Under the pieces are notes generated by a model. The model saw nothing but the letters and a program-made list of their open reading frames with translations, was not told the origin of the DNA and searched no databases. DNA of 42,345 nucleotides. Origin: Synergistaceae bacterium (lineage in GTDB: Bacteria; Synergistota; Synergistia; Synergistales; Aminobacteriaceae). Position numbers and translations under genes: made by a program. Positions 12,270-22,019 of this stretch are shown here, piece after piece; within the stretch, counting starts at the first letter, position 1, and each line of letters begins with the position of its first letter. The stretch is taken from assembly GCA_017448795.1 (NCBI GenBank), contig JAFSKV010000079.1, forward strand, positions 1 through 42,345. Reading direction: 5' to 3'.

Positions 12270-12322
12270 AATCACTCAAATCATCCCGCACATTTCACAG
12301 GAAGGAGCTTGACACAAGATTC

Positions 12323-13716
12323 ATGGCCGTGTATAATCGCACATCGCACATCGCCTGACCTATTGGCTGTTTTCCCTCACACAAATTCTCATTGACGCTT
12401 CACTCTGTCAGATATGCCTCCTCGTGATACCCTCGCCGCTAACTCATGAAGTCCGCGTATTCCTCACCGGCACAGCGCTTGCATGTCTCGCGTTCTACCG
12501 TCTCTACGGCTTCATGAACTGGACAGTCTGGGAAGAGACATCATCAGTCCTCAAATCCTGCCTCTTGACCCTCCTCATAGATATACTCTTCCTTTACGCC
12601 GGGAAATTCTCGCTCCCGTTATGGCGGGTGTCCGCGGCGGTCTCAGTCTTCGTGCCGCTGACACTTCTGACCCGGTACTTCCTGCGCGTGTCATTGTTCC
12701 GTCTGGGCTGGCTCATGAAGACGGTAATCATTCTCGGAGCGGGCGAGGCAGGGGAGCTTTTCGCCGGGAAAATATCCTCATCACCCTTCACGATTCGCAA
12801 GGCACTGTGCTTCCTTGACGATGACGAGTCGAAACAGGGCGCGGAGATTTCTGGCGTTCCTGTCGTGGGGAAGCTGTCAGATTTCGCGGACGTTCAGCGT
12901 GAGATTAGTGCTGACGAAGCAGTGATAGCAATTCCGACGGCATCACGTCAGGCACTCGCGGGAATCCTTAAGGCTGTCGAGGAGCATATAAGGACGGTGC
13001 TTTATGTGCCGGATATGTACATGCTTACGACTCTTGCGGCATCAATCGGGAATCTTGACGGTATGCCCGTGATCTCGTCGTCGCAGGGACTCCTGAATCC
13101 CGTGAATATCGCAGTGAAGACTGTAATCGACTACATAGGTGCGGCGGTAGCGTTCGCGTTTCTTTGGCCGTTAATGCTACTTGCGGTTCTTGCGATATGG
13201 ATTGAGGACGGGAGGCCGATATTCTTCGTTCAGGAAAGGGTTGGCTGGAAAGGTAAGCACTTCATGACGTACAAGTTCCGCTCGATGCACAAGAACGCTG
13301 ACGAAATCACCCGCGAGCTTTTCAGCGACCCGGAAATTTTCGCCGCCTACAAGCAGGGCGTGAAGCTCAAGGATGACCCCCGCCTCACCAAGACAGGAGC
13401 AATCCTCCGCAAGACCAGCATCGATGAGCTGCCCCAGCTGTTCAACGTCCTAAAGGGAGAAATGAGCCTAGTCGGACCGAGGCCGCTGATACAGAGTGAT
13501 GTAGATATGATTTACGGCGAGAGGTTCACGAAGAAGGTTTACGCCGCAAAGCCCGGGCTCACTGGGATATGGCAGGTCTCAGGACGGAGCGACCTTGACG
13601 CTGATTTCCGCCGGGAGATCAACTGCTACTACGTCCACAACTGGAGCGTCTGGCTCGACCTCGCAATCCTCATCAAGACTCCCCTCGCCGTAATCTCGCA
13701 CAAAGGCGCGTACTAG
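12323..13716 (+). CDS. Undecaprenyl-phosphate sugar phosphotransferase (WbaP-like), frame currently OFF
   Basis: The family transfers a sugar 1-phosphate to undecaprenyl phosphate to start surface-glycan synthesis. The main frame has hydrophobic N-terminal helices, a Rossmann-like part ([16 protein letters not shown]) and the C-terminal bacterial sugar transferase domain ([47 protein letters not shown]). Similarity to its downstream paralogue runs up to about 12355, well before the first in-frame GTG at 12424, which lacks a ribosome site. The natural ATG at 12323, after AGGAAGGAG, is in another frame and stops after 11 codons. A 7-nt repeat at 12336-12354 lies between; one more unit would give a 466-residue protein (paralogue 456). 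It is probably phase-variable and switched off here; a sequencing error is the alternative. Confidence 0.8.
12336..12354 (+). repeat. 7-nt tandem repeat, 2.7 copies, in the 5' coding end of the sugar transferase
   Basis: ATCGCAC is repeated twice plus ATCGC (19 bases). Unit length is not a multiple of three, so gain of one unit or loss of two joins the ATG at 12323 to the main coding frame. This is the usual arrangement of a slipped-strand contingency locus, though the copy number is low. Confidence 0.75.
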
Positions 13717-15143: not shown

Positions 15144-15160
15144 GACGGGAGGGGCTGTGC

Positions 15161-15166
15161 TATAAT
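15161..15166 (+). promoter_or_regulatory. Extended -10 promoter of the first pyruvyl-transferase gene
   Basis: TGCTATAAT, with TG one base before a perfect TATAAT, 41 bases before the ATG at 15207. No -35 recognised. Confidence 0.6.
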
Positions 15167-15206
15167 CTCACGCAAATTCAGCAGGAAAGGGCTTGACAAA
15201 CGCGAA

Positions 15207-16396
15207 ATGACCGCCATAATTGACACGACACGACACCGCACCCTCATGCGCAAAATTCCCGCAAGCGAGCCTTAATCGTAACCATATACCCCGATGAAAA
15301 CAGCCGCAACTTAGGCAACACCCTCCAGCATTACGCCCTCCAAGAAGCAACTAAATCACTGGGCTATGACACCGCAAGCCTCATATGCCCCATGCTTGGC
15401 TTCAGCGCGCCAGCCCGTTTTGAGCAACGGATGAGACTGGCCGCAAAATTCATGCTGGCTGTTCTCGGCTCAAAGAAATACCGCCACATGTTGCGGAAAA
15501 AAGCCGCCCCCTCCAATGAGCATATACAGGCATGTGAGATGCGGGGAAAAATCTTCGCGGACTTCTATGATGAATACATTGACGGCATTATCCGCTCGAC
15601 TTACAGGGAGGTGCTTGGCAGCGGGGGGAAATTCTCAGCCGGTTTTGACCGCGTCATAGCCGGAAGCGACCAGATATGGAGCAAAGCTATCGTCATTGTC
15701 TCTGAGGCACTGCGCTTCTTCTACCTCATGTGGGCGGAAAAAGAGAAGCGGGTCTGCTACGCTCCGAGTTTCGGTGACAAAAGGCCGCTCAGGATTGAAT
15801 TTCCCCTGCACAGGAAAGGCCTCGGCGGATTCGCCCGCCTGTCTTGCCGGGAAAAGTCAGGATGCGGCTTCATCAGGGAGCTTGCCGGGCGTGACGCGGA
15901 GCTTGTGCTTGACCCTACGCTTCTGCTGACGGCGGAACAGTGGCGGGAAATTGCGCGGAAGCCTGAGTGTGGTGTGCCGGAACATTACGTCCTCCGTTAC
16001 TGCTGGGGGTCTGACTCGTGGCATGACGAACAGCGCGAGCTTGCGGGCGGAAGGGAGATCATCGACGTTCTGAGCCGCGGACAGGAATACTATTCTCATG
16101 TCGGGCCAAGAGAGTTCATCTGGCTGGTTGACCACGCGGATTTTGTGTTCTCCGAGTCATTTCACGGCACTGCCTTTGCGGTCAACTTGGGGAAAAACTT
16201 TGTCTCGTTCATGCGCGAGAGGAAGGACGACGGGCGGATAGGAAGCCTCCTGAGCTCGGCCGGGATTGCCGGGCATGTCTTCGGGCCGGGGATGAAGTCA
16301 GTGCCTGATGATGTGGACTATGACGGTGTCAGGCGGAAACTTGACGGCCTCCGCGCTGAGTCTATGCAGTATCTCCGTGAGTGCCTGAAGTGCTGA
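15207..16396 (+). CDS. Polysaccharide pyruvyl transferase family protein, frame currently OFF
   Basis: Family proteins add pyruvate ketals (or act as related transferases) to surface glycans. The main frame carries AGSDQIWS, VCYAPSFGD, RLSCREKS, LVLDPTLLLTAEQW and SESFHGTAFAVNLGKNF, all hallmarks of PF04230. In this frame, conserved sequence matching the N-terminus of the downstream paralogue (RKRALIVTIYPDENSRNLGN) lies upstream of the first in-frame ATG at 15392. The natural start, ATG 15207 after AGGAAAGG, is in another frame and stops after about 22 codons. Between them GACAC is repeated three times (15222-15236). Two copies would restore one frame of 394 residues. The gene is therefore probably phase-variable and off in this sequence; acceptor sugar unknown. 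Confidence 0.8.
15222..15236 (+). repeat. Pentanucleotide repeat (GACAC)3 in the 5' coding end
   Basis: Three perfect copies of GACAC, five codons after the ATG at 15207. With 2 or 5 copies the ATG is in frame with the pyruvyl-transferase domain; with 3 copies it is not. This fits a slipped-strand phase-variation switch. Confidence 0.8.
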
Positions 16397-16456: not shown

Positions 16457-17584
16457 ATGACCGCCCAGCAATCCCGAAAACGCAGAATCCTCCTCGTAAC
16501 ACTATACGGCAGCTACAACTACGGCAACCTTCTCCAGAGATACGCACTCACACGGACACTTGAGGGTTTCAGCTTCGAAGTTGCGCACCTATGCTGTGAT
16601 GATGCCTCCCCGCTCGCTGCCAGGGTCAAAGCCTGCCTGAAGCTCCCGGTGAAATACGTCCTTGCGCTGTTGGGAGTCGGGAAATTCCGCAGGCAGTTCC
16701 AGCAAATGAAAGCTGACATTCCCCGCGCTCAACGCTTCACACAATGGCAGGACACCTTCACCCCCGCCAAAATCTTCATGTCATACTCAGGCGCGCTGAA
16801 ATCACAATGGGACGGGTACGCCCTCGCAGTAACCGGGAGCGACCAGGTCTGGCACAACTGGAGCAAATCCCCCGGCGAGCTGGCATATTACTACCTTGAG
16901 TTCATGCCACGCGGAAAACGGGTGTGTTACGCCCCCAGCTTCGGCTTCTCACAGTTCCCCCAGCGGGACATTGAGCTTCACCGCAAAGGCCTCGAAGGGT
17001 TCGGCCGCCTGTCTTGCCGCGAACAGGAAATGCAGGGGATGATACGCTCGCTCACAGGGCAGAACGCCGAGCTAGTCCTAGACCCCACACTCCTGCTCAC
17101 CCCCGAACAGTGGCGCGAAGCCTCGTCCAAGCCCGAATACCCCGTCCCGGAACGCTGCGTGCTGTGCTACTTCCTCGGCGAAATCACACCAGAGTACCAG
17201 CGGGCAATCCATGACATGGCCGGAGGGCTTCCCGTCATCAACATTAACGACATTGACGACATCACGCACTACGTCACGCACCCGGGCGAGTTCGTGTATC
17301 TTGTTGACCGGGCGGATTTCGTCTGCACCGACTCATTTCACGGGACTGCGTTCTCGGTGAATTTCGGGAAAAACTTCCTGGCGTTCAGGCGGTCTCAGGC
17401 GGGAATGGAGGACATGTTCGGGCGGATTGAGAGCATCCTGGACAGCACGGGAATCACTGGCCACGTCTACGAACACGGCATGACTGCGAGGCCGGATATG
17501 CCCGACTATGATTCTGTGGACGGGAAACTTGAGGCTTTGCGGGAAAAATCTATGAAGTATCTCCGCGAGTGCCTGAAGGTCTAG
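16457..17584 (+). CDS. Polysaccharide pyruvyl transferase family protein, intact paralogue
   Basis: A 375-residue soluble protein related to the gene upstream. It opens with RRILLVTLYGSYNYGNLLQRYAL, then has TGSDQVWHNW, VCYAPSFGF, RLSCREQEMQGMI, LVLDPTLLLTPEQW and CTDSFHGTAFSVNFGKNF, the PF04230 pattern. Members decorate exopolysaccharide or cell-wall glycans with ketal-linked pyruvate; some related proteins have other roles, so the exact reaction is inferred. The ATG at 16457 follows GAGAAAGGA; a TTG at 16418 overlaps the promoter and is rejected. There is no repeat after the ATG and the frame is whole, so this copy should be active while the upstream paralogue is off. It is the last gene of the plus-strand glycan cluster and converges on nrdJ. 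Confidence 0.9.
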   Translation: MTAQQSRKRRILLVTLYGSYNYGNLLQRYALTRTLEGFSFEVAHLCCDDASPLAARVKACLKLPVKYVLALLGVGKFRRQFQQMKADIPRAQRFTQWQDTFTPAKIFMSYSGALKSQWDGYALAVTGSDQVWHNWSKSPGELAYYYLEFMPRGKRVCYAPSFGFSQFPQRDIELHRKGLEGFGRLSCREQEMQGMIRSLTGQNAELVLDPTLLLTPEQWREASSKPEYPVPERCVLCYFLGEITPEYQRAIHDMAGGLPVININDIDDITHYVTHPGEFVYLVDRADFVCTDSFHGTAFSVNFGKNFLAFRRSQAGMEDMFGRIESILDSTGITGHVYEHGMTARPDMPDYDSVDGKLEALREKSMKYLRECLKV

Positions 17585-20252: not shown

Positions 20253-21953
20253 TTACTTGCTGAATTTCTGGTAGATCTTCACGAGGCGCGCAAAGAGTCC
20301 GTTCTTCGGGTCAATCTTGGCGTTGCCGAACTCAAAGCGGAATGTCTCCGGGTCTTCTGCCCTGAACGAGAACGACGGCACAGAATATTCAGCCGTGAGA
20401 ACGTCATTCACAGCGTCGGCGATTTCCCCGAAGCCGAGCATCTTCGCCATCGGAAGAAGCATCGCAAGGACTCCGTTCTCGTCATCCGTTATCCAGCCAC
20501 GTATTGCCTCGAAGTCAATCCATAATGCCGCGATTCCTTTCTCTTTCACGAGGGACTCCAGCGCGGGCTTAAGGACAGGTTTACCGCCGAGATTCTGGAG
20601 CTCCGCAAAGTTTATGCTGAGAGTCCCGCCCCTGTCCTGAATGAAGCATGATACAGGGCTGAGTGATGAGTCGAGCTGTAACACTCCTTCCTGTACTTTC
20701 TGGAAATGGGGGGATTTCGTGAGGCGGGCAAAAATTTTTCCGGCAGCATCCTTCATCCCTGTCTGAGATATATACAGCGCGGGAATCTTGAAGCCCTCGT
20801 ACGTTACGCTGTCATTCACGGTTACAGAGAAAGGCCCGGTGAAGAATGATGAAAACTCGTCTTCATTTATCCCGAAACGAACACGCATCTGCCTGACGAG
20901 TTCCTTCCAGAAATCCGCGCCGTCCTTCTGGTTCTTTATGGCCGAAAGCGTCATATACCCGCCCAGCGCGAAAAGAGGGCTCTTTGACCCGCCGGGATTC
21001 ATGTATGACCCCTTTACCGGGACTCTTTTGTCGGAAATATTCGCCGAGTATTCCGCCTTCATGGCCTCCTTGAGGTTCACGTGGACTGACATCGCGAACT
21101 TGTCCGGCTCGCTCGTGAAGCCAAGCTCAAAGTTAAGCGGCTTGTCGAAAATCTCAGCTATCTTGTCGGCTGAATCAAGGGCGTTTTCCGTGTCGAGCTT
21201 GTCAAGCGTCTTGTAGTCAAGGTGAATGTAGGCAAAATTCTTGTCGCTGAATTTCCGTGCCTCCTTTGCGAAAAGCCGGGCTTCCTCGACGTTAAGGGCG
21301 TTGCGCGAAGCTATAAGCTGTTCTGCTGACATGGCAGCGACGATCATGCCGCCTTCAGTCTTCAGGAATAATTCATTGTCTATGCGGTAAGAGCCGTCTT
21401 TGAGCTTTTCGGCCTTTATCATGGTCTGCGCGATGGCTGTTAATGGGTTGTCATTGCCGAGAATCAATTTCGCGAAGTCCGTATCTTCTGCCGTTCCGTC
21501 AGCAATCTTCCTCACAGTCCCGGCCATGCTTGAATCAACCGTGAATGCCATCTGGAAGAACGGAGGCCGCTTCTTGTCCGGGTCTTCCGTGCCGATTATG
21601 ACTGCCGCTGACTTGATGGGAGTTTTTTCCGCGAACGCCCGGATGAACTCGACAGCCCCCATGATGTCGCTTGAGTGTTTCGACTTGAGTATCAGGGGCA
21701 TGAAGATGTCGATGTTTTCCTCCGACACAAGCCATCTCAGGAACGCGCCCGTGTCCTCAAGCCTCAGCACGCCGTAAACAGAATCTTCCGCCCGTGACAC
21801 AAGAGCGTTTTCCGGGAGAAGCCCGGACTCTGAAGTCTGCGGTGAAGGAAGCAGCTTCGACGGGAGCAGATCCCCCAGGCTGAGCGCCGAGGCCGCGGAC
21901 GATGAGAGCATTGCCGCTATAACCGCGAGGCACAAAACTTTTCTCATTCTCAC
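20253..21953 (-). CDS. Large exported protein of unknown function
   Basis: A 566-residue protein with a clear signal peptide (RMRKVLCLAVIAAMLSSSAASA). The start chosen is GTG 21953, ten bases after AGGAGG; ATG 21947 is the alternative, and the longer open frame to 22013 runs through a terminator. The mature protein alternates beta-rich stretches and helices and has no motif I recognise; phrases such as LVSRAEDSVYGVLRLEDTGAFLRWL, GFTSEPDKFAMSVHVNL and a C-terminal FRFEFGNAKIDPKNGLF suggest a multi-domain periplasmic or surface protein. No transmembrane anchor or lipobox is evident. It sits alone between tpiA and nrdJ with terminators on both sides, so context gives no function. Confidence 0.8.
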   Translation of the reverse strand: MRMRKVLCLAVIAAMLSSSAASALSLGDLLPSKLLPSPQTSESGLLPENALVSRAEDSVYGVLRLEDTGAFLRWLVSEENIDIFMPLILKSKHSSDIMGAVEFIRAFAEKTPIKSAAVIIGTEDPDKKRPPFFQMAFTVDSSMAGTVRKIADGTAEDTDFAKLILGNDNPLTAIAQTMIKAEKLKDGSYRIDNELFLKTEGGMIVAAMSAEQLIASRNALNVEEARLFAKEARKFSDKNFAYIHLDYKTLDKLDTENALDSADKIAEIFDKPLNFELGFTSEPDKFAMSVHVNLKEAMKAEYSANISDKRVPVKGSYMNPGGSKSPLFALGGYMTLSAIKNQKDGADFWKELVRQMRVRFGINEDEFSSFFTGPFSVTVNDSVTYEGFKIPALYISQTGMKDAAGKIFARLTKSPHFQKVQEGVLQLDSSLSPVSCFIQDRGGTLSINFAELQNLGGKPVLKPALESLVKEKGIAALWIDFEAIRGWITDDENGVLAMLLPMAKMLGFGEIADAVNDVLTAEYSVPSFSFRAEDPETFRFEFGNAKIDPKNGLFARLVKIYQKFSK

Positions 21954-21979
21954 TGTGAATATTCCTCCTTTGGTCGACA

Positions 21980-22010
21980 AAAATACCCCCCCGCGTTCAC
22001 AGCAGGAGGG
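21980..22010 (-). terminator. Terminator of tpiA
   Basis: Minus-strand CCCTCCTGC pairs with GCGGGGGGG (two G-T wobbles) and is followed by TATTTTTG, ten bases after the tpiA stop. Confidence 0.75.
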
Positions 22011-22019
22011 CATGACAAA

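Follow-up and report, generated by a model that had tools for sequence, protein, structure and literature searches.

Frame-displacing repeat arrays behind a shared start cassette point to phase variation of surface-glycan genes in a rumen genus of Synergistaceae

The stretch of DNA analysed here (the window) comprises the 42,345 nt of contig JAFSKV010000079.1 from the Synergistaceae bacterium assembly GCA_017448795.1, and carries two genes whose frames are displaced from an upstream start codon by a short tandem repeat (Table 1). At the first of these loci, an exact (GACAC)3 array separates ATG 15207 from an otherwise intact PF04230 ORF. Translation from this ATG yields MTAIIDTTRHRTLMRKIPASEP and then a stop, and the pyruvyl-transferase frame stays open between the end of the array (15239) and its stop at 16394-16396. 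The PF04230 match of this frame starts at profile position 1 (residue 24; E 8.5e-23; 82.1 bits for a gathering cut-off of 25.3), so that its product is predicted to be a polysaccharide pyruvyl transferase, with a putative activity on polysaccharide. An ORF begun at the first in-frame ATG (15392) misses the first 58 profile positions. Compared with the homologous locus L110, the ORF showed a pN of 0.257 for a pS of 0.685 (ratio ~0.37), and the stretch preceding ATG 15392 is also under purifying selection (pN 0.276, pS 0.870). One GACAC fewer joins ATG 15207 to the pyruvyl-transferase frame (1187 nt - 5 = 394 codons), the disruption at the array being the sole lesion of the ORF. The first-pass annotation of this DNA is thus borne out on the repeat that puts the gene out of frame, the 22-codon frame opened by ATG 15207, the family-conserved N-terminus lying before ATG 15392 and the continuous 394-residue protein obtained by removal of one unit. 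Next door, a paralogue with an intact frame (ATG 16457) has a leader resembling that of the array-bearing gene. The GACAC homologue is present at L110 and L111 (G028:C70; JAFSRQ010000124.1), the relative carrying JAFSRQ010000124.1 being the Synergistaceae MAG RGIG3411 from goat reticulum.

The same annotation had pointed to a second contingency-like repeat of another unit length in this cluster, and we indeed found that (ATCGCAC)2.7 displaces the frame of a bacterial sugar transferase (pN 0.152 / pS 0.821 against L088). Judged by frame, both genes are predicted to be OFF. Elsewhere in the window, positions 20253-22013 of the reverse strand hold a 586-residue ORF without Pfam match at E 0.001.

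Table 1. Repeat arrays, cassette elements and reading frames of the two switch-like loci in the window.
Feature	Position	Strand	Basis
Ribosome-binding site GGAAGGAG, second cassette	12300..12307	+	motif position
TTGACA, -35-like box, second cassette	12309..12314	+	motif position
ATG 12323 and short frame currently read, 11 codons and TGA (predicted OFF state)	12323..12358	+	translation
TATAAT, -10-like box, second cassette, spacer 17	12332..12337	+	motif position
(ATCGCAC)2.7 array	12336..12354	+	direct repeat reading
PF02397 and CoA_binding_3 ORF of fused type, predicted bacterial sugar transferase, frame displaced from ATG 12323	12355..13716	+	Pfam; pN/pS
P1, extended -10 promoter element TGCTATAAT	15158..15166	+	motif position
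Ribosome-binding site AGGAAAGG	15183..15190	+	motif position
TTGACA, -35-like box of nested P2	15193..15198	+	motif position
ATG 15207 and short frame currently read, 22 codons and TAA (predicted OFF state)	15207..15275	+	translation
CATAAT, -10-like box of nested P2, spacer 16	15215..15220	+	motif position
(GACAC)3 array	15222..15236	+	direct repeat reading
PF04230 ORF of fused type, predicted polysaccharide pyruvyl transferase, frame displaced from ATG 15207	15239..16396	+	PF04230 match; pN/pS
Pyruvyl transferase paralogue next door, fixed counterpart, frame intact	16457..17584	+	P1-like box and ribosome-binding site; no TTGACA box, no array

Arrays of this kind were then sought in 43 genomes of the uncultured rumen genus of Synergistaceae to which the window belongs. 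The loci collected are enriched in three unit types and a single cassette string, which makes the counts given here lower bounds and no census. GACAC, GCACA and CGCACAT arrays recurred among these genomes, and the GACAC array was found in none of 24 genomes outside the genus. The merged set amounted to 116 array loci with periods of 5 (61 loci), 7 (54) and 8 (1), corresponding to about 31 unit types whose sequence was free but whose length was never a multiple of 3. No stop codon occurred in any frame of 32 distinct units, for a shuffled-unit null of 3.9 (P 0.007) and a flank null of 10.4, bearing in mind that the cassettes are related and hence non-independent, and that shuffle nulls throughout this study overstate significance by an unquantified degree. 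Wherever the gene side was readable (96/96 loci), the reading from the start codon remained open through the array. The predicted frame states, 30 ON and 55 OFF, are near the one third ON expected under free frame drift. Orthologues differed between species in copy number, with GACAC x4, 5, 9 and 10 in a single gene family, and also in the unit itself, one MBOAT group having GACAC, CGCACAT or TGTCC. Among the 93 target proteins submitted to Pfam, 16 were MBOAT proteins, 7 pyruvyl transferases, 4 sugar transferases and 3 acyltransferases, alongside glycosyltransferases of several families; the targets with Pfam matches would mostly have envelope-glycan functions.

Within the 2.54-Mb host genome, the 13-base (GACAC)n core occurred at 6 places, versus 1 match for a reversed control. 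Four of these six places are exact contig ends, as are two ATCGCAC arrays, and assembly breaks thus account for 6 of the 13 array places of this genome. In this assembly (G000), the contig ends inside arrays are the end of C2, the starts of C7 and C41, the end of C49, the start of C81 and the end of C85, with loci L009, L010, L015, L128, L012 and L013. Three of the GACAC ends share an array length of exactly 28 bases, which looks like truncation at a single assembly word length, so that the true arrays are probably longer there. MAG annotation will label many such genes as truncated, and the contigs of this genome are interrupted at the arrays. That the third GACAC of the window is itself an assembly mistake, or the dead frameshift of a decaying pseudogene, might be suspected from a single metagenome assembly of 86 contigs with contig ends inside arrays, but we give this reading almost no credit: pure arrays stand at one cassette position throughout the genus, the pyruvyl-transferase ORF has no other lesion and a pN/pS of ~0.37, and its homologue L110, with (GACAC)4, is predicted in frame. 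The first-pass annotation had already argued against random error, and the 116 loci, the restriction to lengths of 5, 7 and 8, the stop-free units, the copy differences between orthologues and the purifying selection make random error or a lone pseudogene a very unlikely source of the window repeats. Two observations go beyond that annotation: the arrays belong to a family of cassettes spread over the genus, each array being preceded by a conserved pair of promoter-like boxes, and about half of the arrays sit in leader ORFs, outside the gene proper.

The shared cassette follows a fixed order, namely an extended -10 promoter (TGnTATAAT), a ribosome-binding site (AAAGGAG), TTGACA, a spacer of 16 or 17 nt, a TATAAT-like box and the array. 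Of 113 cassettes, 103 had a TGnTATAAT-like box at the P1 position, and 48 had one in a control window taken upstream. In the 79 loci selected solely by their array and used for motif counts, TTGACA was exact in 61, the -35/-10 box pair scored at least 10/12 in 66 (shuffle null 0.3), a Shine-Dalgarno-like ribosome-binding motif was present in 63 (shuffle null 3.2) and ATG in 69 (null 42.5). The association also held from the opposite direction: of 76 distinct AAAGGAGCTTGACA sites chosen without reference to repeats, 63 had an exact array 21-33 nt further on, with a period of 7 (35), 5 (27) or 8 (1), and none had an array of period 3, 4, 6 or 9-12. The sites without array were mostly apparent degenerate arrays, contig-end cuts and chance matches in other genes. 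The AAAGGAGCTTGACA string had about 77 matches in the 43 genus genomes versus 8 in 140 other Synergistales genomes, the array being absent at both of the outside matches inspected (2 of 8), and two scans of viral contigs for the cassette with an array gave no match. Four loci of one genome (L016, L018, L020 and L021) bear near-identical cassettes, TTGACACAAGAATCATGGCCGTGTA[T/C]AATCGCACAT, before different genes, a likeness that suggests that the start cassette itself has been copied between loci. Other cassettes (L155, L168, L181, L185, L202 and L204) have degenerate or single-unit arrays, and may be switches at birth, at death or in a locked state.

Two gene layouts accompany this cassette: among the 116 loci, 46 are fused, 50 separate and 20 truncated at contig ends. 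In the fused loci, the gene frame extends back into the array, with a median distance to the stop of 25 nt in the two other frames. In several fused genes, such as the glycosyltransferases of L023 and L144, the conserved domain follows the array immediately and no other start codon is available, so that their translation can begin solely at the one preceding the array. Of the 96 readable loci, 50 carry the repeat instead in a short leader ORF that precedes a separate gene, both window loci being of the fused type. For 38 leader loci with a near gene start (taken from an earlier de-duplication than the 116-locus set), 34 have a frame ending -8 to +15 nt from the gene start, where 1000 shuffles gave a mean of 14.0 and a maximum of 21. 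ATGA overlaps occur in 12 of these 34 loci, and the coincidence of leader end and gene start points to a putative translational coupling; 11 separate loci have no clear coupling. Leader-peptide attenuation as in Streptococcus gallolyticus pil1, in which copy number would set the leader end relative to a terminator, would suit the half of the arrays that share the layout of the GCAGA leader (PMC3894217). We nevertheless regard it as a remote prospect, because a terminator-like hairpin with a T run lies between array and gene in just 2/42 leader loci, the leader frames terminate at the gene start instead of a hairpin, and a leader is missing altogether from 46 loci. Terminator attenuation was accordingly rejected for most loci on the rarity of the hairpin.

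The nested box pair calls for a separate discussion. Its frame with respect to the start codon takes all three values (45/8/36), so that the box pair is conserved as DNA and not as peptide, and a peptide-level conservation of the TATAAT box was rejected on this ground. The array start also tracks the -10 box (sd 1.9, a lower estimate because the search itself restricted the distance to this box) more closely than it tracks the ATG (sd 4.0). These properties, together with the strength of the conservation itself and the promoter SSRs known from the H. influenzae hmw genes (PMC2651432), would be in keeping with TTGACA-N16/17-TATAAT as a working promoter with its start inside the array, copy number altering transcription or mRNA stability through the 5'-UTR. 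Such a transcriptional switch appears improbable to us. Transcripts initiated in the array would contain neither the conserved ribosome-binding site nor the start codon, and a promoter at the nested box could not express the many fused genes, L023 and L144 among them, whose conserved domain adjoins the array without any other start. It would also leave unaccounted the unit lengths indivisible by three, the stop-free units and the leader stops at gene starts.

Alternatively, the nested box could be a built-in mutator promoter, retained for holding the array start melted rather than for expressing the gene, so that arrays of any sequence would be born there repeatedly and slip at a high rate. 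This proposal would add to a frame switch and not replace it. The anchoring of the array on the -10 box, the unrelated unit sequences found at the same spot, as if arrays arose there again and again, and the lack of any other evident use of the box pair in fused genes speak for it; common ancestry of all cassettes could also keep the array in position, and we hold it to be rather unlikely, if less so than the transcriptional switch. If true, the genus would carry a portable phase-variation cassette turning the gene behind it into a random switch.

The best explanation of these arrays, and one that we consider highly probable, is slipped-strand phase variation of surface-glycan genes. Transcription from the upstream P1 would give an mRNA carrying the ribosome-binding site and start codon, on which the ribosome would translate a short N-terminal segment before entering the array. 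As the units are of 5, 7 or 8 nt and free of stops in all frames, any gain or loss of a unit, by replication slippage in living cells, would shift the exit frame. In one frame of three, the ribosome would pass straight into the gene (fused type), or would meet a stop overlapping the gene's start codon and re-initiate there (leader type); in the remaining two, translation would terminate early. Expression would thus depend on frame, with the pyruvyl transferase predicted ON at 2, 5, 8... GACAC units and the sugar transferase at 3.7, 6.7... ATCGCAC units, and surface variation would be the benefit. The arrays have the hallmarks of translational contingency loci: they are pure, their units are not of 3n length, they lie in the 5' coding region or a leader ORF and add no stops, the out-of-frame gene is intact and under purifying selection, and copy number differs between homologues, in this case between species only. 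Overall, the genus probably flips its surface-sugar genes ON and OFF at random through these arrays.

Some features fit this frame switch less well. The window array has just 3 units, which is short for fast slippage, although H. influenzae hsdM with (GACGA)4 is reported to switch at a high rate (PMC2651432), and the start codon lies ~15 nt from the ribosome-binding site in many cassettes, longer than usual. A frame switch moreover needs no strict adjacency of the array to the nested -10 box. A lack of mismatch repair as driver was rejected, MutS_V being present in 42/43 genomes. Loops of 5-8 nt may exceed the reach of mismatch repair, which would fit the absence of 4-mers.

Known systems offer several parallels. 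SSR contingency loci of H. influenzae include hsdM (GACGA), an LPS flippase (TCAGC) and the tetranucleotide lic genes (PMC2651432). The Synergistaceae arrays share with them pure, short, early-coding repeats with units other than 3n, surface-glycan targets and a frame set by copy number; for TCAGC as for the window pyruvyl-transferase gene, two units are in frame and three are out (PMC2651432). In contrast, H. influenzae uses mostly tetranucleotides in locus-specific contexts, whereas the Synergistaceae genus has 5-, 7- and 8-mers only, with many unit sequences, and all of its arrays follow one common start cassette that places a pair of promoter-like boxes ahead of them. The S. gallolyticus pil1/pil3 GCAGA repeat is likewise a pentanucleotide array that lies in a short leader ORF; this ORF has a ribosome-binding site of its own and precedes a separate gene (PMC3894217). 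However, pil1 acts via a terminator hairpin, while 40/42 Synergistaceae leader loci have none and the frames end at the gene start codon. The seven-base units near the promoters of hmw1A and hmw2A are comparable in length (PMC2651432), yet these repeats are reported to modulate a promoter ~100 bp upstream of the gene, unlike the Synergistaceae arrays, through which the reading frame of a preceding start codon runs.

Our literature search returned no report linking Synergistota with phase variation by SSRs of this kind. Translational repeat switches have been described mostly from host-adapted pathogens. The novelty lies in the taxon and the scale, in a standard cassette whose repeat unit is free, and in the conserved pair of promoter-like boxes that adjoins each array. 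A large set of switches on surface-glycan genes, built from one cassette, suggests a strong pressure on the cell surface, be it from phage, host or neighbours. The combination of a strict cassette, a free unit and an adjoining promoter-like box moreover constitutes a natural experiment on the birth and placement of contingency repeats. At a few loci (L057, L082, L119, L126 and L199), the gene behind the array encodes a putative secreted or repeat-rich surface protein and not a glycan enzyme.
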